Shown: piece after piece, positions 63 to 59,588 of the stretch | Position numbering within the stretch: position 1 is the first letter of the stretch | Layout of the letters: every line of letters begins with the position of its first letter | From: Neofusicoccum parvum | Lineage: Eukaryota > Ascomycota > Dothideomycetes > Botryosphaeriales > Botryosphaeriaceae | Assembly: GCA_020912385.1 (NCBI GenBank) | Contig: CP087206.1 | Coordinates: 558,001-622,000 of the forward strand | Direction of reading: 5' to 3' | DNA: 64,000 nucleotides | The notes under the pieces: model-generated | Told to the model about the DNA's origin: nothing | What the model saw: only the letters and a program-made list of their open reading frames with translations | Database searches by the model: none | Position numbers and translations under genes: made by a program

Positions 63-1405
63 CTATATGAGTCGATTACCTGAGAAAGCTGCTGCCATCA
101 ACAAGAGACTTGGCGGGCCCAGCGCATCTCCGGCAAAACCTTCAGGCTCTGGATCAAGTAGCCACCGAAGCAAGCCAGGCGAAGCCGCCGTACGCAAAGA
201 TCCACGCTCCGCGCAGAAGAAGCGGCGGCCACTCTCTCGCGTGGCTACGGAGAACGCAGCCCACCAACCGCAGCGGCCCCCCTCGCTCACCCGCTCCTCC
301 ACAGATCCGCTACTCCCTCCCACCTTCAAACGCGAAGGCAGCGAAGCACCCTCCCTCTCCTCTATCCCCTCCCTCAAAGACTCCCAAACTTCATCCAGCC
401 GCAACTCGCTCTCCCAGTTCGAGCGCTTCTCGCGCCGCCAAATCGACCTCGAAGCCATGTCCAAGGCCAACGAAGCCAAGCTCAAGAAAAAGGCGCACAT
501 CGAGCAGGAGCTCGAAAAAGCAATCGGCACGCTCCGCAAGCCCAACCGCGGCGCCGCCCTCAAAGACGTCGCCGCCGACACGGACAACCGCCGCCTCTCC
601 CGCAAGCCGGCCACCACAACACGCAAGCCCGCCGCCGCCATCCTCGTCGGCGCCACCCCCAAGCGCGGCAGGAAGACCAAGGACATCGTCCAGCAGCAGG
701 CCACGCCGAACTACCGCTGGCCCCCGGGCATGGCGGCGCTCGACCCGGACGACGACGTCGCGCCGCCGCCGCCCAGCTCGGACGCGGTCGTGCCGTCGTC
801 GGCGATCCGGCCGACCAGCGCCGTCCCGGCCTCGGCCGCCAGGAGCGTGGCGCCGTCGTCGTCGACACTGCCGTCGCGCACCCAGCGCGGCGCCGGCCCG
901 GCCGTCGAGGATACCCCGTCGCGCGGCCCGGCCGGCAAGACCGTCCACTGGCTCTTCCCGCCCAGCAGCGGCGACAGGGGCGCCGGCGTGGCGGCCACGC
1001 CCGAGGCGGGAGTGTCGCGGCTGGCGGAGAAGCTGGCGGCTGGCGCCAAGGGGGCGTTGCTGCGGCCGCCGAAGCCGCCGCCGGCGTTTAGGTTGCCGGG
1101 GGAGGGGGTGGGGAGGGGTGGTGTGGAGGACGAGGGGGAGGAGAGCGAGGATGAGTTTAGGGGCGTGGCGGCGATGTTGAGGACGCCGACGAAGGTGGGG
1201 AGGAAGGCGTGGGAGGTGATGGAGACGCCGGTGAGGGGAGAGGGTGAGGGGGGGTGGGGAGGGGAAGGGGAAGGAGAAAGAGGGGGTGGAGGTGGAGGAG
1301 TCGAGGGAGGTGGAGAGGGGGGAGGGGAGTACGGGGGAGGGAAGTAAGGAGGTTTCGATTTACAGTGCTTTGGGATGGGATGACGATGTGGACGAGCTGG
1401 CGTAG
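63..1405 (+). CDS. Sld3-like DNA replication regulator, C-terminal part (5' end outside window)
   Basis: The first exon lies left of the window; bases 8-62 read as an intron (gtaagt...tttcag), and coding resumes at 63. The protein is basic and Ser/Pro-rich. It contains a segment like fungal Sld3: Ser-Leu-Thr-Arg-Ser-Ser-Thr-Asp, then a charged helix (RQIDLEAMSKANEAKLKKK) and a VGATPKRGRKTKD block. Sld3 is the CDK target that brings Cdc45 to origins; that role is family knowledge. The frame open from 63 runs on to a stop at 1345-1347 through an implausible Gly/Glu tail. The +1 frame instead ends at 1403-1405 with an acidic SIYSALGWDDDVDELA tail that looks like a genuine C-terminus. The shift would fall near a run of seven G (1248-1254), so either a homopolymer error, a real frameshift or a tiny intron is present. 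Family call is from memory of motifs. Confidence 0.6.
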
Positions 1406-2554
1406 AGAGGGTTAGGCGGCTTCTTCGCTCTTTCGGTCTTTGAGCATAATGCGAGGGGTGGGTAGCATATGGAGGAGTGCATTGCATGGTCGGGCATTGG
1501 TTGGAGTTCATGGTGTGTTGCACCGGTATAGAGACGCGCACGGCGCACGGAATATCGAAAGCATGCAAAGTAGACTAGCGTTATCATTGCCATTAACTCA
1601 CTCCAAATTCGTTGGTGTGGATCTGTAGCATTTACTTGGATGCCTTTGATATGTGGACTATGTGTTGAGTACTTGCAGGTTCGAACAGGGTGAGAAAGCA
1701 AGCTAAACAGTGGTGTTCTATCGAACTTGCAGTTTAGGTGACTAAGTGCTAGGCCCAAGCTACCTTCATCATCATGGGGCTTCTTGTCACAACACGGAGA
1801 GGTGAATGGGGTTGCATGATTGTAAGGAGTTCACAAAGCGAGTAAACACTTTGGATCTTCTTATTTCGTGATTCTGTATGTTGGGCCAGGACAGGAATGT
1901 GTGGATTTGGTTGTTCATCAATTGTGCGAAGTTCCTCACCCTCCCCTTTCACCAAATAAAAAAAAACATCTACGGTACATCTTCCCCACTCTCGTATCCT
2001 CATTTTTCGCTCTCGGTCTCGTCATCATCACTTTCAGAGGTTTCATGGTTGGTGGGCAGCGTACCTGTGAAGTGTTTGCAAGTTGTGAAAAGTTGTAGGT
2101 TGGAGTAATAAGCAGGTAATATGAGGAGTTTATGTGAGGTTTACCTGCGCCGTGGTGTACTTACCACAGCTGATTCGGAAAGAATCACTTTGATGATCAA
2201 TGTGAATTTCCTGTGCGATATACGTATCGCCTGAAAGCTATTTCATATAGTAGATTAATCAATAGTACCATCAATTCAGTTCTAACGGGTCTTGTTGGAA
2301 AGTTGGTGGTATCAGATTCTGTTTCCAGCCCCTATACTAGCGCGTCCTACGCATCAGGAATCGAGCTTACATCTACATACCAGAAAATTTGTTTCACTGT
2401 TATAGAAGCATTCACAGTATTACCATATTCTCGCCGTATTTCTCCTCGCGTTCCTCCTTCCGTTTCTTCATGACTATCTCCGTCCAATTTGGCTTCTCCC
2501 CGTCTTTGGTTGCGGCCACTCGAGGTTTATGGTGAATTTGAAGGGGAGGCTTCG
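1406..2554. other. AT-richer intergenic stretch, no gene recognised
   Basis: Only short overlapping frames are present. One 58-codon minus-strand frame (2412-2588) encodes a charged Lys/Arg/Glu-rich peptide. It could be a leftover exon of the decayed gene next to it, but I found no splice junction that joins them. Confidence 0.5.
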
Positions 2555-3255
2555 TCATTTGCCTCGGTGGTTTTTCCAAATGAGACATACTGGGCCGTCC
2601 GTCTGTGTCTCAAGTGTGTCTCTATCACCTGGCGGCAGAGTAATTGTAACTGTCGCATATGGTCTTGGAAATGTCTCCTGTAGTTTCTGCGGCTGTGATT
2701 CATGTAGTGATTGCTGGTCTCGTTGTTTCTCAACGCCTGTTACGAATTCGGGGTTGACCCAGCGACGCTTCGATGGCGGCTTAGCAGACTTTGAAATAAG
2801 AGGGGTAATGGGGTGGTGGCTAGCATGCCGTAAGGAGTACTGCGAAGGCCGGTACGAAGACGATGATGGCGAGTGCGCCCGAGCACGCGTATTCTCCTTC
2901 AACACCTCGGTGTCTCCTGTTTGAGAGGAGTCAAGCCACTGTGTCAGCTTCGAATTCCAATCTAAAACAGGAAAATTGGGTAGGTGATGGTGTGAGAACT
3001 ACCACATCTCACACATTTACCCTCGTTATCGTTCAAATCGTATCGCGCGATGCAGCGCGTACAAACTTCCCACTTCGAAGTTTTCTACTCCGGATAAAAT
3101 GCCTAGAAATCCGATGAGGCTCGCTTCTAAGGAGGTTCAGTGAGCTCGCCAATGAGAACCTCCCTAGCGGCAGGGATGTGGATGATGTTGAGGAGGACCC
3201 TTTGCAGGAATTCTTTGTTGGCGGTTTTGGTGTTTTTCTTAAGGACGGATTCCAT
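2555..3255 (-). pseudogene. Decayed, inverted relative of the CHORD-like array genes
   Basis: From ATG at 3255 the minus strand encodes MESVLKKNTKT followed by FLQRVLLNIIHIPAAREVL, which matches the N-terminal helical segment of the array genes at 5976-13218 (pattern RLQxxLLxLCxxxPSARxxIExxLL). In the same frame the finger half site follows as KWEVCTRCIARYDLND and GKCVRC, closest to the copy at 11983 (KWEVCGRC). Three in-frame TAG codons (3127-3129, 3103-3105, 3085-3087) separate the two parts. A 42-nt intron (gtagtt...ttttag, about 3002-2962) would then lead into a further open exon that ends at 2555. That exon does not show the CC...GC...H second half site. Alternative: an intron with a poor donor (gttctc) and a TAG acceptor just before the Lys-Thr-Ser-Lys-Trp part would skip the stops but delete part of the conserved helix. 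Confidence 0.5.
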
Positions 3256-3754
3256 GTTGGCTGGGCTGGTTGGATTGTCTTGTGTTGTGGAGTTGAGGAG
3301 TCGAGGTAATCAACTGCGGAAAGTCTAGAGGACGCGTAAATATCCCTGTACGCGACGTGCCAGGGAACACGCGACTTGTCGTGTCAACAGATAAAGAAGT
3401 TTTACCGGCAAATACCATATCAGGCGTGGAATAATGTGAGAAATTTTGACTGTGCTTTTGATTATGTCTACATTAAAAGCTATAAAATGATTTGTTCTAC
3501 CACCCACTGGACAATCCATAGCACTGTCCTACCCGACTTTCCTTATCGAGTAATTTTCGCTTCATCATGCCACCAATGATCAACGTTCTCTTGTGTTTAA
3601 ATCCTAGTAACTCTCACCCATAATGGAAGATTTCACCAAGTCAAAATGAATGCTTACGAGCCTCAAAAAAGCAAGAGAACAAGTCCCACTGTTTGTTTAG
3701 TTCTCTATACTCGTAACGTATAAGCAAAAGTAACATTGGTATCGTCACACCCGC
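3256..3754. other. Intergenic, nothing recognised
   Basis: AT-rich spacer between the decayed array relative and the 3' end of the dehydrogenase. No supported reading frame or RNA gene seen. Confidence 0.5.
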
Positions 3755-4960
3755 TCAAAGATACAACCCCAACACATCCAACAAGCCCTTCTCCTCCAAG
3801 CCCAGTTCATCATTCACCTTCCTCCACACCCTCAACCTACAATCCTGATCCCTCGCATGCGGCATGGCCTCCTCCTCCCACACGCGATTAAAATACCTCC
3901 CGCCGCCCCTCCCCCCCTCCACGCCCACACCCTGGACCTCCGGATCGGGCCCAGCCTCGACGCTCACGGCGCCATGCAGGATGGCCAAACTGCCCTGCTG
4001 GGGGGTGATGCCGAGCAGCCAGGCGGCGACCTTGACAATGACGATCTTGATCGAGGTCAGCCAGCCGCTCTGGTTCAGGTTCCAGATGCCGGTGTTGACG
4101 TAGCCGGGGTGCACGCCGTTGACGGTGATGTGGCGGTACTGCGGGGTGGCGAGAAGGCGGCGTTGCAGCTCGGCTAGCCAGATCTGGAAGTACAGCTTGT
4201 TGTTTTGGTAGTACTGGACGCCCGAGTCGCCGGCGAGGCCGAGCTCGCCGTTGAAGTCGGCGAGGGCGAACTTGCCTAGGTAGTGGAAGCAGGAGGTGGT
4301 GCAGACGATGCGGGGGGTTGGGGCGGCGGCGAGGGAGGGGAGGAGGCGGAGGGTGAGGAGGACGTGGGAGAGGAAGTTGACCTGCGGTGTGGATCAGCGA
4401 ATGGGGTTGGTTTGGGATTTCGAGGCGTCCAGAGGGAAGGAACGCACCTGGTGGATGATCTCGAAGCCGTCCTTGGTCCTGAAGACGGTGCGGCCGCCCG
4501 GGCTGCTGCCGATGCCGGCGTTGTTGCAGAGGATGTCGAGCGCGCGGCCGGTCTCGAGCCAGCGCGCGCAGAAGGCCTCGACGCTGGCCAGGCTGGCGCA
4601 GTCCAGCTCCCACCACTCCACCTGGGCCTTCTCGTGGCCGGCGACGCGGGCGGCGGCGCGGCACTCGGTGACGACGAGCGACGGGTGGGTTTCCTTGAGC
4701 GGCGGCTCGCGGCAGGCGAGGATCAGGTTGGCGCCCCAGGCGGCCATCTGCACGGCGGCTTCACGGCCGATGCCGTTGTTGGAGCCGCTGATGATGACCC
4801 ACTTGCCGCGAAGGTCGGCGGCTGGGACGGTGGCGTGGGTGCGCTTGGTGCCCTTGTGGTTTTGGGAGTGGATCCATTTGGCTGAGGGTTCCTTGAATGA
4901 CAGTGGTGCGGTGTAGGGGACGCTGTTGAGGTCGGCGTCGGTGGAGGGTTGGTCTGCCAT
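3755..4960 (-). CDS. Short-chain dehydrogenase/reductase (retinol-dehydrogenase-like)
   Basis: Two exons, 4960-4448 and 4381-3755, joined in phase 0 across a 66-nt intron (CAG^gtgcgt...accgcag), give 379 residues. It carries the classical SDR set: the nucleotide-binding GSNNGIG near residue 60, CNNAGIG near 145, a TTSC serine strand, and the catalytic YYQNNK (Tyr-x3-Lys). About 45 residues precede the Rossmann fold, and a hydrophobic stretch (IKIVIVKVAAWLLGI) near the C-terminus suggests membrane association, as in many fungal retinol/WW-oxidoreductase-type SDRs. I chose ATG 4960; an in-frame ATG at 5107 exists but its extension is low in coding character. The substrate cannot be told from sequence. 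Confidence 0.88.
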
Positions 4961-5975
4961 CTCTGGGTTGTCTTTCTTTTCTTTTGCTTCCAGGGACGTC
5001 TTCTCTGCGGAAATGATGCAGGAGCAAGCACAGATGGGTGATATCAAGAGGTGGTCACAGCCATTCTCGCCAAGCCGATTGATATAGGCTGTGGTCGACA
5101 GAGGCACGGAGTCATGCGGAAAGCATAGCGGATGGTATACGTCCGTATAGAGGAGGAGCTGCGAACGGATGCGGGCCGAGGCATCTCCTGAAACGGAGAT
5201 GCATGCGCGGTCAGCGCAGGCAGCAGAACTAGGAGCACGACCAATTGCGCGCCACGTCGATCACGATCACCGCCGTCCTCAGAGAGGCTCGCGGCTGGCG
5301 ACGCATTGCGGCCGTAAGCGGCCAAGCTCTTTCTGGTGGTGTGGCGGCGGAAGGGAGGGCGGGAGGGCGAGGGTGGAATGTGGGGTGCTGGGGTGTGGAC
5401 GGAGGACGGCGACGGCGACGGTGACGGTGACGGTGGATGGCTCGAGCGGCGCGGTAAGGCAGACAGGCGCAGGCAGCAGGCCTGAGGCCGATAGCCGAGC
5501 ACGTGCGGTGCAGCGATCCCCGGGGCCCTCCAGACGGCGGCGATCAAGACGGCGCTGGCGCTCTGGGGCCAGGGCCATTGATTGATGCGCGCGCCTTTGT
5601 CGCAGCGCGCGCACGTGAAGAGCGTCGCCGGCCGCCCAGCGCGCTAGAAACACAAAGCGATTCTGCGCCTGCAGCCTCCGCGCGTCGCGACGCCCGCCGC
5701 CGCCGTGTCCGACACCACGCACCCCTGCACCACGCCCGCCGGCGACGTGGCCGCTGTCGCTGAGGCCACCTCTTGTCGCGCTCCACGCCCTCATTGCGTC
5801 TAAGGGGGCAGCAGCCGCCCGGTCAGGGGTTTCAGGAAAAGCAAAATCACGCGCCTGCCCGGCCATTGTCTGCGCCAGACGCCCAACTCCCATTCCTCGG
5901 CCCAGCAACCCCACCACCAGCGTGCCCTGCACCACCGATCCCGCCGCCCGGAATCCCAGGTCGCCGCCCCAGACC
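4961..5975. other. GC-rich intergenic region upstream of two divergent genes
   Basis: Shared upstream region of the dehydrogenase (left) and the first array gene (right). Several long overlapping frames here are GC-driven and resemble no protein. It contains a short GACGGY tandem repeat (see separate entry). Confidence 0.5.
5405..5434 (+). repeat. Short tandem repeat, five units of GACGGY
   Basis: Five consecutive six-base units, GACGGC twice then GACGGT three times, in the non-coding region upstream of the first array gene. Confidence 0.8.
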
Positions 5976-6558
5976 ATGACGTCCCGAGCCCTGCTCGAGG
6001 CCATTGACTACGCCAGCCATGAGCGTCTGAAGGCCACCATCAAGGCCATCTGCGAGAAGTCGGCCATGGCCCGCGACCTCGTCGGCCACGAGCTGATGGT
6101 CGACTCCCGGAGCAGCAGCGAGGAGCCCTTCCACTTCCCGTCGGTTCTGCCCATGGCCGCCGTGCTGCCCGCCAGCGGCATCGCCCCCAGCAGGAAGCGC
6201 CCCAGCATCCAGTTCATTGAGTGCACCCGCTGCAGCAGGAAATTCGAGACCGTCCAGGAGAACGTCGGCGAGTGCGCCTGGCACGACGGTGCGTATGAGT
6301 TGGGCGTGGAATGTTTGTGATGGATCAGCTGATTCGCCACCAGGGACGCTCGCCGTCGACTTCCACCACGAGGTCTGGATGGACTGGTGTGAGAGCACGT
6401 GCGGCCCGCTCAACTGCGAGGAGAACATGAGGGCCAATCTTCGCGAATTCCCCGAGGGCTTCGTGTGGAGCTGCTGCGCCGCCCGCGGCGACGCGCTCGG
6501 CTGTCGGAGAGGCCCGCACCAGGCACGCGAGGTGTCCATCAAAAGAGTGAGGATTTGA
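5976..6558 (+). CDS. CHORD-like small zinc protein, array copy 1
   Basis: Exons 5976-6288 and 6344-6558 (55-nt intron, phase 1) give 175 residues. Residues 1-45 form a helical segment (LLEAIDYASHERLKATIKAICEKS then ARDLVGHEL). A basic linker precedes the first half site, CTRC (83,86), C100 and WHDG (H103). The intron interrupts the Gly codon of WHDG. The second exon carries a Trp-rich acidic stretch and then FVWSCCAARGDALGC with H163. The eight potential ligands follow the CHORD order C-C-C-H-C-C-C-H, but the spacing is looser than in true CHORD domains, so this is a family inference. ATG 5976 starts the helical segment that the paralogues share; an upstream in-frame start at 5922 adds only Pro-rich sequence. 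Function unknown. Confidence 0.8.
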
Positions 6559-50031: not shown

Positions 50032-51117
50032 ATGCAAGCTGCGAACCGCTTCCAGAAGGCCCTCAAGAAGGGCGGGGCTTCCTTCGGAGCATGGCAGGTG
50101 AATAGTCAATGACTCGCCTCGACGGCACATCAGCGTAGTAATTCAGGTTCCAGATGCTGCCCGGGTCCAATCACTCCCGTACTATTGCCAGTGCCAACAT
50201 GGACTGGATCTGCGTAGACATGGAGCATGGGAACATCGACGGTACGAAGTACCCGGTTGCTCTGATGCATTCGATCTGCTCCTCTGATTGATCTACAGAT
50301 GGCCAAATGCATGAGTGTGTGGCGGCAATTGCTAGCTGCGGAGTGAGCCCTCTTGTCCGCATCCCGGCCAACGAAGCTTGGATGGTAAAGCGTTAGTCTC
50401 CCACTCGATGGAACATTAAGCCTGCCGTCTGATTTAACCTGCAGGCGCCCTTGACGCTGGAGCACACGGAATCTGTGTGCCTCTCCTTTACACCGCAGAT
50501 GATGCTCGCAAACTCGTTTCGGCATCCAAGTTCCCTCCTCAGGGTACACGTGGCTTCGGGTCACCTTTTCCGATGGGCAAGTTCTCGAATCAGAGTACCG
50601 CGGAGTACCTCTTGGAGGCGAATGATGCCTTGGTCACTATCGCACAGATCGAGACAAAAGAGGCGTTGGAGAACGTATGTATCAAGTCCTACTCAGGTCT
50701 TTGCAACTCGGTCTAACAGTCTTGGTAGGTCAATGAGATTGCTGCGGTTCCAGGGATTGATGTCCTGCTCATCGGCCCCTTCGATCTCGGCAACAACATC
50801 GGCCATCCGATTCTCGATGGCACAATGCACGATAACCTGAAGTCTGCCATTGACCGCATCCACAAGGCCGCCGTTGACAACGGCAAGCGGACTGGTATCT
50901 ATTGCACCAGCGGCGAGCAAAGCCACGAGTACGCGCAGAAGGGTTTCCACATGGTGAGTTCCGGAATTGGCATTTCATGTAACCGTGTCTGAATTGTTTG
51001 CAGATCTCCGTCGCCGCGGATATGCTTGCCATTCCGAACTATTTCAACAGCGTCCTGGACGTTGCAAGAGGTGGTAGTGTCACGGCGTCGAAGGTGACAG
51101 GACCATACGGACGTTAG
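50032..51117 (+). CDS. HpcH/HpaI-family aldolase
   Basis: Six exons (50032-50097, 50154-50241, 50299-50391, 50445-50674, 50729-50953, 51004-51117) give 271 residues, the family's size. These class II pyruvate aldolases cleave 2-keto-4-hydroxy acids (HpaI type) or act on citramalyl-CoA-like esters. Visible: GAWQMLPGSNHSRTIA, the metal/active-site DWICVDMEHGNID, SPLVRIPANE with the catalytic Arg, DAGAHGICVPLLYT, and the metal ligand region TIAQIETKEALENVNEIAAV with DVLLIGPFDLGNNIG. For the first intron the acceptor at 50153 (ttccag) is preferred over an earlier one, because it restores WQMLPG. The physiological substrate is not evident. Confidence 0.92.
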
Positions 51118-51491: not shown

Positions 51492-52262
51492 TCAATCTTT
51501 CCCTCCGAATGAGAATCCACTAATCGTCCCCGTGTTATTACCCAGCTGGAACCCTCGGTTGTTGGCTCCCGAGAACACAACACGAGGCAGCCTCCCCTGT
51601 TCCGCCAACACCTTCCTGATTGCATCTACTAAGGACGGATCCTGCTCCACAGCCACCTCCTCAAGAAGCGGGAGGTCGGCCTGAGCGCCGATGGTTGAGA
51701 TCTCCTCTTCGCAGAGCCTACTCTGCGTTGCCTGCGGCGCAGGTAGTATCTTTTCCAGGCCGTCGACGAGGTCCGTGATATTCTCGATCAGCTCCTCGAA
51801 GTGCTTCTTCTGGTAAAGAGCCCATTTCGTCTTCTGCGTCAGTCCGGCGTGCCTCTGACGATTGACGGCGAGGTTCCGCATCCGCTCGTGGAGCGCAAGC
51901 GCTTTCTCATTCATATCGGCATGTGGATCGTAGACCGCAAGATCGGTATTCGCAGTAGCGGTGCCTCGAAAGGTCTTCGAAATCCCTTCCGCATCGGCGA
52001 AGAGCTCCAGGATGTGGCCGATGTTCCTCCCGGCCTGCCTAGTCTCTCGAGGTGGGAGGGATTCGGCATCGTGGATTTGGATGGCCTCCCCCCAGCGTGA
52101 GAGACGAAGCCTTGCGTTGTCGAGTTTCAGTTGGCTGGTTCCGAAGTCCTTCCCGAAGTTGCGACCGAGCTGGATGTATTCAAAGCATTCGACGGCGTTA
52201 TTGAAAAGGGCCGCGATGCCGACGACTCCGACTGCGAGACCGGCGGGTTCCATTCCAGACAT
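51492..52262 (-). CDS. HeLo-domain cell-death effector with C-terminal amyloid-type motif (HET-S-like)
   Basis: Single exon, 256 residues. The N-terminal ~200 residues match the HeLo (prion-inhibition/propagation) domain: a hydrophobic start MEPAGLAVGVVGIAALFNN, then VECFEYIQLGRNFGKDF, LKLDNARLRLSRWGEAI and a later LTQKTKWALYQKKHFEELIE. In HET-S the hydrophobic N-terminal helix drives membrane damage once the C-terminal motif adopts an amyloid fold. Here the last ~29 residues are Gly/Asn-rich and contain F-S-G-A-N-N-R-G-F-Q-L-G-N-N-T-G-T-I. The same pattern opens the receptor encoded divergently at 52972. The motif resembles the sigma-type fungal amyloid motif (N-x-G-x-Q-x-G-x-N-x-G-x-I) rather than the HET-s repeats. 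The activity is inferred from family, not seen. Confidence 0.85.
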   Translation of the reverse strand: MSGMEPAGLAVGVVGIAALFNNAVECFEYIQLGRNFGKDFGTSQLKLDNARLRLSRWGEAIQIHDAESLPPRETRQAGRNIGHILELFADAEGISKTFRGTATANTDLAVYDPHADMNEKALALHERMRNLAVNRQRHAGLTQKTKWALYQKKHFEELIENITDLVDGLEKILPAPQATQSRLCEEEISTIGAQADLPLLEEVAVEQDPSLVDAIRKVLAEQGRLPRVVFSGANNRGFQLGNNTGTISGFSFGGKD

Positions 52263-52971
52263 TCTAGAGCAGCATGGCAGTTTCTTGTCATTTCAGTACT
52301 AACAAGGCCATCACAGGCCATTCAAAATCTCGTTTCTTCTCAGCCTTGCCGGTCAGCATAATGTGGAAACAGGTTTTTGACGTGAGGCGGACCAAGGCGG
52401 GGCTGTGTCCTTGTGTGGCATCATTTTCAGCCTCGCCGGCAACGTGTCATGCTTCCTACCATTCGATTATCGCCAAGATTCCAGAGCAATGGGAGGGGGA
52501 GTTCCAGGATGGCTGCTGCAGGAAATGAGCAGCGCAAGGAAGACGCTTCCACGGCAGCAACAAGCACAAAAGCTATCCTGAGAGGTGCTTCAACTTCCCG
52601 TGAACGTCAGTCGTCTGGAAATATTGGAACTGGGGCCACTGTTGGAAAAGCCTGCGGCATCATTCGTCAGGCCTGACCGTCCTCATATGATTGTGGCTGC
52701 ATTGAGGCGTGCTGAGTGATCACATCCACCCTGGCGGGTCAAGCTGTGCAAGGGGGGTTGGCCGGCGAGGCTCCCATAACACTTGAAAGCCTTATCATGC
52801 AGCTGGACCGCTCGGGTGCATAGTCAACAAGACACAAGCTTGCTACTCTCTTGAGATTCTGTCTACAATCATTCCGCGCTTTTTTTTTTTTTACTTATTC
52901 AACTTGTCCATTTTCCACGGCTCATTGCCATGTATCTGTAACTTCTGCTCTTCAAAGCAGAAACTTGCGTC
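52263..52971. promoter_or_regulatory. Shared divergent region of the HeLo effector and NLR receptor genes
   Basis: 709 bases between the two start codons, compatible with joint regulation. A T12 run occurs near 52880, about 90 bases before the receptor start. No specific factor site is claimed. Confidence 0.5.
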
Positions 52972-55599
52972 ATGTCCGCACCCGGCCCATCCTCACTCCC
53001 GAGTTCAAGCGCCCTCTTCCCCGGCCCTGAAAATCAAGGAGCCCAGCTCGGATATAATACTGGCACAGTGAACAACATCTTCAACGGACAGCATCGTGAG
53101 ACACCCACTGCTGATTATGAGACCTTCTACTGATGTTCTAGCACGCAGAAGCGCCTACAGTAGCTAAGCCAAAGCCATTCTCCAGCATACCCTACAGGCG
53201 CAACCCGAATTTCGTCGATCGTGGCAGTGTCTTATCTCAGGTTGAACAGAAGCTTCTGGATCCTGCTGCTCGTGTTGCGCTCACAGGCCTTGGAGGTATA
53301 GGGTAAGATGGATCCTATCCCACTACAGGAGAACAAAACTCATTATAATTTGATTAGAAAATCCCAGTTGGCAATAGAGTACTGCTATCGCACTCGAGAC
53401 GCCTCCCCCGAGACGTATGTATTCTGGGTGCATGCCAGTAACGAGGCGCGGTTCGCAGAATCTTACAAGGAAATCGCTATGCGGCTCAAGTTGCCTGTCC
53501 GGCAGGACAATTCTGGAGATGAGATCCTGAAAATGGTAAAGAACTGGCTTGTTGACGAAGAGAATGGCCGTTGGGTCCTTGTTGTGGATAATGCCGACGA
53601 TCCAAACGTGTTTTTCTATCCGAACACAGCGGCCAGTATGGAAAGCGACAATGTTCAGAAGGCCAGAAAGAGCCTCGCATACTTTCTACCTCAATCCATG
53701 AATGGAAAGATTGTTCTTACTTCTAGGTACAAGGAAGTTGCACTCCGTCTCATCGATGGCCCCAAGGATATTCTGGAGGTGAAGCCAATGCTTCAACAAG
53801 AAGCACTGGTTCTATTTCGGAAAAAACTGGACGTCAGCCAGGAGGATGAATCTACCGCTCTGGAGATTATTGAGGCTCTGGATTACATCCCTCTTGCAAT
53901 CGATCAGGCATCAGCGTTTATCGCCCAAAGAACACCTCAAATGTCAATGTCAAAGTATCTTCAGGACTTTCGCAGCAGTGAAGCAGCAGCTTCAGCTCTA
54001 CTCAGCCACGACGTGGGCAATATTTACCGCGACGATGCTGCTTCAAACTCCATTATTTCCACTTGGAAGCTCTCCTGGAATTACCTGGTCTCTCGTCGAC
54101 CAAGCGCCGTATGGCTGTTGTCATTGATGAGTTTCTTCAATTGTCAAGGCATCCCAGATTTTCTCCTCTGCAACTACCGGGATTGGTATGTGGGTGTAAA
54201 TGATACAAATGGCATACCCTGGTGTCTGTTTGACTTCGTTGAAGTTCAGGCCAACCATTCACAACATCCTTCCGGTGAGAGGCTCTCCAAAGCCAGACGC
54301 ATAGTGAGGAAACTATTTTCGCGTCGTCACAAGATTCAAATTCACCCGACGGCAGGAACACACTTGCATGGTCCAGCGTTGGCTGAAAATGATCATTCCA
54401 GATGCAGACACACTGAGCTGAACAACCCACAGGAGTTCCAAGAGGATACCATCATCTTGCGGAACTTCTCAATGATCACAGTCAATATAGATGGATCTAC
54501 ATTTCAAATGCATCCATTAGTCCAGATGGCGACTCGGAACTGGCTGAAAGATTCTGACGAGACGGACACCTGGACATATATGAGTTGGGAAATACTTGCC
54601 AGGGAGTTTCCAATGGCGCCAAGTTACAAACTTTGGGACAGATGCAAGATGCTACTTCCGCACATCGACGTCAACGCGGATGCTCCCTCTGATGGACCTC
54701 CCCTTCACCACTGGGCTCTGCTTCTCACTTCGGTAGCATATTACGAACTCGAACATGGTAATACAGTTCTTACCAAGATGTTGGCCAAGCCCTTGCTACA
54801 CACGGTCAACCAACACGGATTCGATCTTTTTAGCAGCGAAGTTGTTTTCATTGCTACACGAAACTTGTCGGCGGTTTTGATAGTCTCCGGCGAATCATCT
54901 GAAGCAGCGAGGCTACGGCGCGATCTGTTACAGAAAGAATTGATGGCCCTAGGCGCAGAGCAACCTCGCACAACCTATATTCTGGCAATAGCACTTAAAG
55001 AGCTGGGAGAGCTAGATGAAGCAGAAGAAATTTTACGGAAAGCATTGGCGAAAGTCGAGCCTGGATCTTGGAAAAACGAATGCCAAGCTTGTACGATAAG
55101 ATGCAACCTTGGGAATCTCTTGCTACGGAAAGAAAGATGTGAGGAAGCGAGAGACATTCTAAGCCCAGCAACGGAGAACTTGAGAACCTTGATAGGAGCT
55201 AAACACCCCGATACACTGCTTGCTATATATTACCTAGCAGTGGCTTTAAGAAGCTGCGGAGAATTGGATGAAGCGGAGGTCATGTTTCGGGAACAAGCGG
55301 CGGCCCTTGAAGAAGTCTACGGAAAGGGTCATGTTCTGGCATTGGGCACTGCAGTCAATCTAAGCCGTCTATATGTGCACCAGGAAAAATTCGAGCTTGC
55401 AGAGACTATTCTTTATAAAGCGATAGAAGAATTTGTCAGTACTCATGGAGAAGAGCACGAATCCACAGTCGAGTTGAGGTGGAGGTTGGTTCAGTGCCTG
55501 AGGATGCAAAAAAAGTGGGATGCAATCTTGGAATTGGACCCGTCTTCGAAGGATCAGGAGTGGTTTGGAATGGATTTCAAAGTTCAAGAGGAGGGCTAG
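52972..55599 (+). CDS. NB-ARC/TPR NOD-like receptor with N-terminal amyloid-type motif
   Basis: Exons 52972-53095, 53149-53302 and 53358-55599 give 839 residues. Residues 16-37 (F-P-G-P-E-N-Q-G-A-Q-L-G-Y-N-T-G-T-V then NNIF) repeat the motif at the C-terminus of the adjacent HeLo protein. After a short linker, VDRGSVLSQVEQKL leads into NB-ARC. The P-loop GLGGIGKSQ (88-96) is created by the second splice. Walker B is WVLVVDNADDP, RNBS-like GKIVLTSRYKEVAL and the GLPLA-like IPLAIDQASAFI follow. Residues ~600-820 hold TPR repeats (GELDEAEEILRKALA, GELDEAEVMFREQAAALEEV, LAETILYKAIEEF), the ligand-sensing part in this class. Established NLR/effector pairs in fungi transmit the amyloid fold from the receptor N-terminus to the effector. 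All junctions close in frame, so it appears intact. Confidence 0.88.
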
Positions 55600-56811: not shown

Positions 56812-59102
56812 TCACTCCGCATCCACCATCTTCTCATCACCGTCGTTCTCTCCAATCTCCGCACCACCCTCAAGCACCTCATCACCTCCACCCTCCCCCT
56901 CGCTCTCCTCCCCACCGCCCCCAAACCGATCACTATCCGTATCCGGAACACTCTCCTCATCCCTCTCCGTCTCGCTCCCCTCCTCAAACCCAAACCCCCC
57001 CACCTCATCGCTCCGCCTCCACACCACCCCCTCCCTCGGATCCACCCACGTCGCCCTCCTCTCCCCGCCCGGCACGAACCGCACGAAGTACGCCCGCCCG
57101 TCCACGCACCGCCGCTGCTGCCACCCGCCCGCCAGCCGCAGCGCGTTGAACGCGCCCGCCGTCTCCCCCGCCACCGCCGGCTCGGCGCGCCTGCCCGGCA
57201 GGGGCGCCGGGAACGCGCGCGCGAAGCGCGGCTCCGTCGGCGAGACGTACGGCGTGCTGGCCGCGGTGGCGGCCTGCTCGACCAGCGCGGCGACGGCCGG
57301 GGCGGCGGCGTGCGGGTACCTGGCCGGGTCGAGCATCGGGATGGCGGGGTGGGGAGGGCTGTGGGGCGAGACGGGCGTCGGCGTCGCCGCCGCGGGAACG
57401 TAGCCCAGGATGACGGTGCCGTAGCAGTTGCGCCTGCGGAGCAGGGCGTGGCAGGGGTTGCGGGCGACGCCGCAGCCGACGTCGCTGGCGGGGTTGGCGA
57501 AGCCGGCGGCGGCGCTGCTGGTCGCGGGGTCGCTGCGGGCGCGGGTGCTGAAGCCGAGCAGCTGGGCGGCGGTGTCGGTGGGCGGGACGGTCAGGCGCGC
57601 GATGCCGCCGTTGATGTCGGCGTCCGCGTTGGCCAGCGGCGTGGTGTAGCCGGCGTACGGGTGCGCGACGTGGAAGCGGCAGAGGTCGTCGCCGTAGTAG
57701 GGGGCTGAGCTGGCGCTGCCGCCCAGCGCGCCGTCGCCGGCGAACATCTCGTCGGCGTAGAGGCGGGGGTGCGTGTAGCTGTAGGAGAAGTGCGTGGCGG
57801 ACTCGGCCATGTCGGCGTTCACGGCGGCGGTGCGGGCCGCGGCTTCGGAGGCGAGGTCGGCGGCGAAGGTTGAGCGGAGAGAGGGAGGCAGGAAGAGGGA
57901 GTTAGGGTCAATGGGGTTGGCGTGGTGGTGGGTCAGCGTCCAGGACACCATGAAGGAGCGGAGGGGTGAGCCGGTGGATGTGGTTTCGTAGGTGAGGGCG
58001 ATTTCCAAGGCGGAGGGAAGGAGGCGGTAGCGCGTGCAGTAGCTGATGATGCCGGTGAGGAGGTCGTCGAGGAACTGCGGGTTGTGGAAGGTCTCGCCGA
58101 TGCTGTAGGCGCGGATGAAGTCTTCCAGAGAGTGGCACCTGAAGTAGCTGGTTTTAGAGTCACTGGCTTCTTTCGCTGTTTTTACACACTAATGGGGGAG
58201 CAGAAAGGGAGGGAATGGTGGAAGACCTACTCCTGGGAGACACCGCCAAAGTAGAGCCACTTCATGAACATGACGAGGGCGTCGCGCCAGCCGTCGGCGA
58301 AGTGGATCTCGCGCGGCGGACGCTTGAGCAAGATGTCCTGGCGCAGCTCACACAGCTCGCGGTGGATGAACACGGAGTGCTGGCCGTCCTGGACGACAAC
58401 CTCGTTGACGCCATCGTAGTGGCAGAGGTAGGCCTTGGTGCCAGCGCGGGTGACGGGGATGGGCTCGGGAGTGGCGAGCCTGGGGTCGTCGATGAAGTAG
58501 GCGTTCGGGTCGAAGAGGCGCAGCTGGTCGCCGAGCTTGCGCGCCAGGTCGTCGTGCTCGTCCTTGTCGCGCGAGCGGTTGCAGTAGTCGAACCAGAAGC
58601 TGCGGAGGTTGCAGGGGCCGGCGAGCAGCTCGTTCAGGTTGCCGGGGGTGCCGAAGTGGATGTACAGGTCGACGAAGAGGCGGCGGATCGGGGCGTCCTT
58701 CTCGGTGGTGTCGGGGTCGTAGGCATGGGCGATGCACGCGTTGTCGGGCAAGATCTTGCGCGGGCCCGGACGCGTCGCGTTGGTGGCGATGGTGCGGATG
58801 ATGGTGTTGGTGAACCTGGTCGCGCCCACCATGTCGCCGAGGACCCAGGCGTCGACCAGCTGCTTGCGGTCCTGGCTGTTGGCCCAGCTGAGCGTCATTG
58901 GGCCGCCGTAGATGTAGTCCAGGAGCAGGTGGAAGGCGCGCGGCTGGATGGTGGGCAGGCTCCAAGTGCCGACGGTCGGCGTCGTCTGGAGGATGCGGGC
59001 GAAGTAGAACATGTGCGTGGCCATCAGGTGGGCGTGGACCGAGAAGGCCTCCTCCTCGGGCCCGACCTTGACGAGGACAACGTGCTCGAATTCCTGCGAC
59101 AT
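56812..59102 (-). CDS. Tandem-BTB protein with a WW domain
   Basis: Exons 59102-58231 and 58138-56812 (92-nt intron, phase 2) give 732 residues. BTB 1 (about 1-130) starts HVVLVKVGPEEEAFSVHAHL and has RAFHLLLDYIYGGPM. A second BTB-like unit starts AYLCHYDGVNEVVVQDGQH and FIHRELCELRQ, with VMFMKWLYFGG before the splice and HSLEDFIRAYSIGETFHNPQ after it. The intron splits the second BTB, so both exons belong to one gene. A Thr/Ala/Pro-rich region with a possible zinc-like CYG/C spacing follows. The WW domain reads LAGGWQQRRCVDGRAYFVRF and ends TWVDPRE. The C-terminus is acidic. Upstream in-frame ATG 59216 adds a hydrophobic, Pro-rich leader that I judged non-coding. Confidence 0.75.
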
Positions 59103-59588
59103 GCTGGCGGCGTTGTAGGGAGCAGCGCCGGTCGCGCGAGGGCGAGAGAAAATCTGGGAGTGCGGGTGGAGGAAGAAGAGAGTCGGAGGAGGGACTGAGC
59201 CAGCAGACAGTGGCACATGGCTCCCATCTTCTGGTTAAGCGAGATGTTGCCAGTGACTGCGTGGACTTTGGACCAGCTGGCCAGGTGTGCCTCACTTTCA
59301 CTTCTTCACCCGGCGCCCGGTGCCGTCACTTCGCCTTACTTCTCACTGGAGTCAGCTTCAGGGTTTCCAAAGAACGGAGATTATATTTATGTTTATGCCA
59401 TTGGACTGATGAGGTGTTTACATTGTCGGTTGGTTGCAAGACTATGCTCCGAAAACCAGTAAATGCGGGCAGTATTAGGAATGCTGAGAGAACGACTAGA
59501 ATACAACATAGTGATCCATTTTACAATATTGCTGTTGTGTGCGTGTAGCTTTTCCCTCCCCATTAGCTTTTCGAGTGATTGGTGTTTC
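59103..59588. other. Intergenic, nothing recognised
   Basis: Upstream region of the BTB-WW gene and 3' flank of the wall-protein gene. No supported feature. Confidence 0.5.

Follow-up and report, generated by a model that had tools for sequence, protein, structure and literature searches.

Pairs of adjacent fungal genes in which a HeLo effector and an NB-ARC-TPR receptor share a PP (pseudopalindromic) motif were described in 2012 (PMC3321046, section 8) from Arthroderma otae and A. gypseum, and PP matches have been counted in 98 of 579 HeLo-related proteins (PMC4518210). The hellp-pnt1 pair of Podospora works by prion-like templating, and PNT1(1-31) forms prions when tested in cells (PMC7885112). 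The pair analyzed here lies in a window of 64,000 nucleotides, the whole stretch of Neofusicoccum DNA under study, and is a further example of this pair type. A sequence-only reading of the window had supposed the combination to be little described, which the two Arthroderma pairs contradict. A literature search combining Botryosphaeriaceae or Neofusicoccum with NOD-like receptor, amyloid or HeLo matched 5,452 entries, and none of the 12 listed concerned this locus.

Gene layout and domains

The HeLo and NB-ARC-TPR genes are divergent neighbours, as the sequence-only reading had placed them, and both were recovered at the following positions:

51492-52253, minus strand: gene of the HeLo effector (253 aa, one exon)
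51666-52241, minus strand: HeLo domain of the effector, aa 5-196 (PF14479, E 2e-51)
52254-52971, no strand: region between the divergent start codons, 718 bases
52972-55599, plus strand: NB-ARC/TPR receptor (NLR) gene, 839 aa, spliced, three exons
52972-53095, 53149-53302 and 53358-55599, plus strand: receptor exons (splice model)
53232-53988, plus strand: NB-ARC domain of the receptor, aa 70-303 (PF00931, 40.1 bits, cut-off 23.5)
54964-55428, plus strand: TPR region of the receptor, about aa 629-783 (TPR_12, 70.8 bits; TPR_10, TPR_4 and others also above their cut-offs)

Translation of the effector from an alternative ATG at 52262 gives 256 aa. Both promoters may lie inside the intergenic region. 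The two receptor introns, of 53 and 55 bases, are both GT..AG and the spliced frame is free of internal stops. The acceptor of the first intron was chosen among alternatives by eye, and exon 1 found no backing from a close orthologue among the receptor relatives listed (best 120 of 595). The second intron (53303-53357) interrupts the P-loop GLGGIGKSQLA. Receptor domains follow the order PP motif, NB-ARC, TPR, as in PNT1-type receptors, and the motif is followed by a stretch, PF..IP..R.P.FV.RG, that recurs behind the motif in many of the listed relatives.

Both sequence comparison and structure prediction indicate that the effector HeLo domain has the HET-S fold. The domain matched the solved HET-S HeLo domain 2wvo with an E of 1.9e-43 on sequence, and the predicted fold of the effector (mean pLDDT of the model 71) matched 2wvo/2wvn/2wvq in Foldseek (E 1.9e-11, TM 0.73/0.83), with 37-38% identity to the solved HET-S/HET-s domains in these alignments. 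At the site of H33 in solved HET-S and P33 in HET-s the effector carries Asn, and thus matches neither known allele there. In the C-terminal motif region, pLDDT was mostly under 50, in keeping with a segment that would take up its fold only when templated.

The shared motif and its class

Each protein carries one copy of the motif, at the C end of the effector and at the N end of the receptor:

51522-51575, minus strand: effector C-terminal PP motif FSGANNRGFQLGNNTGTI (PF17046 Ses_B, 39.7 bits, cut-off 23.2)
53017-53070, plus strand: receptor N-terminal PP motif FPGPENQGAQLGYNTGTV, residues 16-33 (PF17046 Ses_B, 23.9 bits, cut-off 23.2)

In the effector, FSGANNRGFQLGNNTGTI is followed by 11 residues. 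The profile HMM search placed both copies above the Pfam Ses_B cut-off, the receptor copy barely so when the whole protein was scored (23.9 vs 23.2). The shared pattern proposed by the sequence-only reading is real. Its wording F-x-G-x-N-x-G-x-Q-L-G-x-N-T-G-T-(I/V) lacks one residue, and what the two copies have in common is F-x-G-x-x-N-x-G-x-Q-L-G-x-N-T-G-T-(I/V).

When the C-terminal 60 aa of the effector were compared with the N-terminal 60 aa of the receptor, the best ungapped 17-mer had 11/17 identities, against a mean of 5.1 and a maximum of 8 in 1000 shuffles. With none of the shuffles reaching 11 and the motif strongly conserved in homologues, the two copies align clearly better than random. 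At the DNA level, 33/54 bases are identical and the same codon is used at only 2 of the 11 identical residues. This indicates that the likeness is kept at the protein level, and on the same counts a recent duplication of motif DNA was ruled out.

By its sequence the shared motif is of the PP class, not sigma. The PP core is NxGxQxGxN (PMC9815663), and it occurs in both proteins (effector NRGFQLGNN, receptor NQGAQLGYN). Both FSGANNRGFQLGNNTGTI and FPGPENQGAQLGYNTGTV also follow the longer consensus, which PMC3321046 gives as FxGx(x)NxGLQLxGxNxGxL, except in small points: instead of L, the effector has F and the receptor A before Q, and the last residue is I or V. The printed consensus also sets QL and G one residue further apart than either motif does. 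Most published receptor PP motifs lie at positions 5-9 (PMC9815663), compared with residues 16-33 here.

The sequence-only reading had called the motif sigma-like, which the termini do not bear out. As described in PMC3321046, the sigma motif is built from two submotifs, GxGxQFNxx (A) and GGTQNINT (B), with three repeats altogether; neither the C-terminal 60 aa of the effector nor the N-terminal 77 aa of the receptor contained GxGxQF, QFN or GGTQN. The HET-s or HRAM class has two 21-residue repeats in the effector and is represented by the profile HET-s_218-289. PF11558 was not among the domain matches at E up to 1 (25 of 26 families for the receptor), which is weak evidence since the profile matches only about 25% of HRAM proteins (PMC4518210). 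A genome-wide search for the HET-s class gave no match, though its controls gave none either. The HET-s class was rejected on the missing PF11558 match and, more strongly, on the single PP-type copy.

Relatives, genome scan and alternative readings

Conservation of the motif was examined in the best 120 of 427 HeLo relatives and the best 120 of 595 receptor relatives. Among those listed, 97/120 HeLo relatives carried the strict pattern N.G.Q.G.N.G within their C-terminal 50 aa (shuffle mean 0.005) and 34/120 receptor relatives within their N-terminal 60 aa (shuffle mean 0), while at the opposite ends (effector N, receptor C) it was found in 0/120 of each. Precomputed domains assigned PF17046 to 113 of the 120 HeLo relatives. 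When the effector was aligned with 41 proteins picked from these relatives, the motif columns F, S, G, N, G, Q, N and G were invariant across all 42.

Co-variation between the two motifs was less clear. Against the receptor motif, 18/115 HeLo-side motifs scored at least as high as the effector's own; against the HeLo motif, this was the case for 2/92 receptor-side motifs. The scoring dropped rows without a GxQx(G/A) window (5/120 effectors, 105/197 receptors). Among these 115 and 92 motifs, the two motifs of the pair do not clearly stand out as the best match for one another, and tight co-variation was not clearly seen. Linkage in other genomes was judged indirectly, from effector and receptor relatives of one species on assemblies with a longest contig of equal size. 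There were two such cases, Lophium mytilinum (P0026 and P0219, 783,962) and Curvularia clavata (P0025 and P0177, 2,896,455), both listed with no distances.

Among the matches listed, Botryosphaeriaceae effector relatives reach 55-95% identity, and all receptor relatives stay at or below 52% across the nucleotide-binding region. One tentative reading, which we consider possible but rather unlikely, is that the effector is stable across the Botryosphaeriaceae and the adjacent receptor has been replaced or diverges very fast, the PP motif serving as an adaptor for new receptors on an old cell-death protein. In a NOD tree of 198 rows, the receptor sits on a branch of 0.83, which is long, next to a group rich in PP (65/89 rows). 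The two are joined with an SH-aLRT of 86%, short of the 95% mark, and the receptor falls in no starred set. Starred branches of this tree account for no fewer than 18 switches of the PP label, which was assigned by a loose pattern applied to annotated N-termini.

Scanning the 44-Mb genome with the Ses_B profile gave four matches above the cut-off, in two HeLo/receptor loci. Two are the window pair (effector motif 42.9 bits, receptor motif 29.2 bits); the others belong to a second locus, which looks broken. Apart from this locus, no further PP receptor scored above the cut-off, and PP copies that have diverged could be missed because the 28-position motif was scanned exon by exon. On C7, one weak Ses_B match stayed under the cut-off with 15.3 bits, in an open frame of 75 aa, and was dropped, as it has flanking stops and no PP core in frame.

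Both termini are short and Gly/Asn-rich, and might thus be alike by low complexity with no function in common. This is scarcely credible, as none of the 1000 shuffles reached the observed identity, eight motif columns are invariant among the 42 HeLo proteins, and the strict pattern is confined to the effector C and receptor N ends of the relatives listed. A low-complexity coincidence was rejected on the shuffles and on this end-specific pattern. The Gly/Asn-rich character is also found in sigma, and the matching Pfam family is named Ses_B; both speak for a sigma-type amyloid pair, as in Nectria sesA/sesB/het-eN. Such a pair is highly improbable, being already contradicted by the PP core in both termini and the sigma submotifs in neither. 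Moreover, PP is found on sesB homologues beside HeLo-Goodbye genes (PMC3321046, section 8), which could account for the name of the family.

The long branch of the receptor, the absence of a close orthologue among the matches listed and the apparently broken second locus could also point to a relic: the effector would be served in trans by another receptor, with the adjacent one divergent or decaying and its motif still PP-like. Yet the receptor frame runs uninterrupted through its three exons and encodes a P-loop, NB-ARC and TPR, its motif residues are retained despite changed codons, and the genome scan, which could miss diverged copies, offers no other PP receptor above the cut-off, the broken locus aside. 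We thus consider a relic pair very unlikely.

Proposed mechanism and comparison with known systems

Altogether, the two genes very probably make up a PP-motif amyloid signalosome of the kind that drives cell death in fungi. Counting against this reading are the score of the receptor motif, barely above the cut-off, its place deeper in the protein than most published PP motifs, the alternative partners that score as high, and the thin backing for receptor exon 1. That they are a cognate pair sharing one amyloid-signalling motif, as the sequence-only reading had held, is supported, and by analogy templating is the likely mechanism. From homologues we infer oligomerisation, templating, membrane damage and a biological role, as follows. 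The NB-ARC/TPR receptor would stay inactive until a ligand reaches its TPR region; it would then oligomerise via NB-ARC, gathering several N-terminal PP motifs. These clustered motifs may fold into an amyloid seed able to convert the matching C-terminal motif of the HeLo protein, and the converted motif would activate the HeLo domain, leading to cell membrane damage and fungal cell death. The role of the pair is probably non-self or pathogen recognition.

The locus adds a PP-motif pair in Neofusicoccum (Botryosphaeriaceae), a clean HeLo, PP and NB-ARC-TPR combination whose reading frames are open, while the second PP locus of the genome is apparently broken. Strain comparison at the locus could bear on whether receptor turnover outpaces that of the effector, and on cross-talk between PP motifs of different pairs.

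The sigma system of Nectria haematococca (sesA/sesB/het-eN), as described in PMC3321046, likewise has a short Gly/Asn/Gln-rich motif common to effectors and receptor, but differs in motif class and effector domains. HET-S/NWD2 of Podospora anserina shares with the present pair a HeLo effector and an adjacent receptor (PMC3321046, PMC5485727 and PMC9815663). In that system the N-terminal motif of the receptor templates the C-terminal motif of the effector, and the same placement here suggests analogous templating. However, HET-S has two HET-s-type repeats and NWD2 is a NACHT-WD protein, as opposed to a single PP motif and an NB-ARC-TPR receptor.

PP motif, NB-ARC-TPR receptor and adjacent genes are all found in HELLP/PNT1 of Podospora anserina and HELLP/SBP/PNT1 of Chaetomium globosum, as given in PMC7885112 and PMC5485727. 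The same source reports a 54-base intron just behind the motif of pnt1, compared with 53 bases in the window receptor, which has a second intron where one is reported for pnt1. The effector domain is HeLo-like (HELL) in the HELLP systems and HET-S-type HeLo here. In contrast to the Chaetomium system as described there, the four genome profile matches include no PP-bearing SBP lipase. Finally, the Arthroderma pairs have, like the pair studied here, a HeLo effector and an adjacent NB-ARC-TPR receptor with the same PP motif at C end and N end; the present pair differs from those of A. otae and A. gypseum in species, and its genes are divergent with 718 bases between their starts.

Gene structure and domains of the pair

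The window, at C1:558001-622000, belongs to a fungal genome of 44 Mb in 18 contigs. The pair and its neighbouring frames occupy the following window positions:

51492-52253, minus strand: HeLo effector gene, single exon
52972-53095, 53149-53302 and 53358-55599, plus strand: exons of the NB-ARC/TPR receptor gene
50438-50716: neighbouring frame, HpcH/HpaI aldolase match
58227-59234: neighbouring frame, BTB domain match

The two genes had been described from the sequence alone as adjacent and divergent, and this arrangement was confirmed: 718 bases separate the minus-strand HeLo gene from the plus-strand receptor. The acceptor of the first receptor intron was picked by eye. For the second intron, which splits the P-loop, each of five alternative acceptor positions tried gave 27 to 34 stops. 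Given the HpcH/HpaI aldolase and BTB matches of the flanking frames, Pfam recognised no further effector (e.g. an SBP lipase) next to the two genes; the frame at 56812-58188 gave no Pfam match.

The effector matched the Pfam families HeLo (E 2e-51) and Ses_B (PF17046; 39.7 bits). The receptor matched NB-ARC (40.1 bits) and several TPR families, and its Ses_B match (23.9 bits) lay just above the cut-off of 23.2. By sequence, the effector also matched the solved N-terminal domains of HET-S and HET-s (E 1.9e-43), and its AlphaFold2 model, built from 42 sequences (mean pLDDT 71, pTM 0.71), gave four structure matches with E under 0.001, all of them HET-S or HET-s entries. The motif region of this model was mostly below pLDDT 50, which is consistent with a segment that would stay unfolded until templated.

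Class, matching and conservation of the shared motif

The pattern common to effector and receptor is FxGxxNxGxQLGxNTGT[IV]. The sequence-only reading had correctly placed a shared pattern at the effector's C end and the receptor's N end, but the true pattern contains one more residue. The best 17-mer alignment displayed 11 identities, whereas 1000 shuffles averaged 5.1 and never exceeded 8. Because 2 of the 11 identical residues share a codon, we infer that the likeness was kept by protein-level selection and not by recent copying.

In the published definitions (PMC3321046, PMC9815663 and PMC5485727), the HET-s/HRAM class corresponds to two 21-residue repeats in the effector, the sigma class to three repeats taken from GxGxQFNxx and GGTQNINT, and the pseudopalindromic (PP) class to one pseudopalindrome with the core NxGxQxGxN. 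Both window motifs contain the PP core and neither contains a sigma submotif; the motif had been called sigma-like, and this assignment is not retained. The Pfam label Ses_B can mislead on class, since sesB homologues adjoining HeLo-Goodbye genes are reported to carry the PP motif (PMC3321046, section 8), presumably the origin of the name.

The window receptor and HeLo motifs scored 56 against each other (BLOSUM62). Against the receptor motif, 18 of 115 other HeLo-side motifs equalled or beat its own partner; against the HeLo motif, 2 of 92 receptor-side motifs did so. The two motifs are compatible, but not clearly co-tuned.

Among the best 120 of 427 HeLo relatives, PF17046 was present in 113 (precomputed domains), and the strict form N.G.Q.G.N.G was found within the last 50 residues in 97 (shuffle mean 0.005) and within the first 60 in none. 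When the window protein was aligned with 41 relatives hand-picked from these 120, F227, S228, G229, N232, G234, Q236, N240 and G242 were invariant, although at least one listed relative outside the 41 (P0007) breaks the G234 column. Among the best 120 of 595 receptor relatives, the strict motif occurred in the first 60 residues of 34 and the last 60 of none; Pfam detected PF17046 in 10.

Relatives of the two genes

Among the matches listed, the HeLo relatives closest to the effector are found at 95% identity in Neofusicoccum ribis and at 87% in N. parvum, which makes a Neofusicoccum species the probable source of the genome. Effector relatives at 55-95% identity occur in the Botryosphaeriaceae genera Neofusicoccum, Lasiodiplodia and Diplodia (P0001, P0002, P0004, P0006, P0008); another Lasiodiplodia HeLo match, P0071 (54%), lacks PF17046. 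By nucleotide-binding region, the best receptor relatives among the matches listed showed 45-52% identity over 75-87% of residues 1-330, with variable N-termini (SesA, HET, others, also PP). Two sets of the best 120, which include unnamed rows, named no receptor relative from these three genera; each set was drawn from 7994 scored candidates, chosen within a length range for the most shared words. Two readings fit: a receptor that turns over more quickly than the effector, or one that was overlooked or mis-annotated in those genomes.

In a tree of 198 nucleotide-binding regions, the window receptor formed a long branch (0.83) and fell in no starred set; the group beside it, joined at 86% SH-aLRT, is PP-rich (PP in 65 of 89 rows). 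Starred branches carry at least 18 switches of the PP label. This count is inflated, since the label is a loose pattern applied to annotated N-termini, where first exons may be missed.

The same genome contains seven HeLo places and nine NB-ARC places. A genome scan with the Ses_B profile gave four places over the cut-off: this pair, and on contig C3 two more that are separated by about 0.55 kb; diverged copies may be missed because the 28-position profile was scanned exon by exon. The C3 matches belong to a second locus (L013, C3:3269500-3279000; local coordinates):

4257-6544, minus strand: second HeLo/PP locus
442-3270, plus strand: Copia-like reading frames, named from reading of the frames and not by profile

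The HeLo gene there has its own PP-like end and is interrupted by one in-frame TAG. After it comes a short open piece that carries a PP motif; farther along, an open piece of 146 aa matches NPHP3_N (E 6.5e-8), which we take to be a P-loop NTPase family. On this evidence the second pair looks broken, and its receptor apparently had a different nucleotide-binding type from the window receptor. At a further distance of about 1 kb are the Copia-like frames.

Elsewhere in the genome, the best match to the window receptor reaches 36% identity. NB-ARC/TPR-type matches at C18:610835-716413 include the nearest other receptors; the genome scan reported no Ses_B match on this contig. At C16:155940-157442 (minus strand), a weak HeLo match lies directly upstream of a same-strand NB-ARC match, possibly an all-in-one form with effector and receptor in one protein.

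Comparison with described pairs

Among 579 HeLo-related proteins, PMC4518210 counts 98 PP and 76 sigma matches. PMC9815663 gives 296 receptors with the PP motif, and for 37 of them a neighbouring protein has a similar stretch. By analogy with relatives in published work, the receptor motif would template the effector motif and lead to HeLo membrane damage. The combination had been thought possibly little described; in fact, in two Arthroderma species, HeLo proteins adjoin NB-ARC-TPR receptors with the same shared motif (PMC3321046, section 8). Like these, the window pair joins a HeLo gene to an adjacent NB-ARC-TPR receptor through a PP motif, and it is one more example of an already described pair type.
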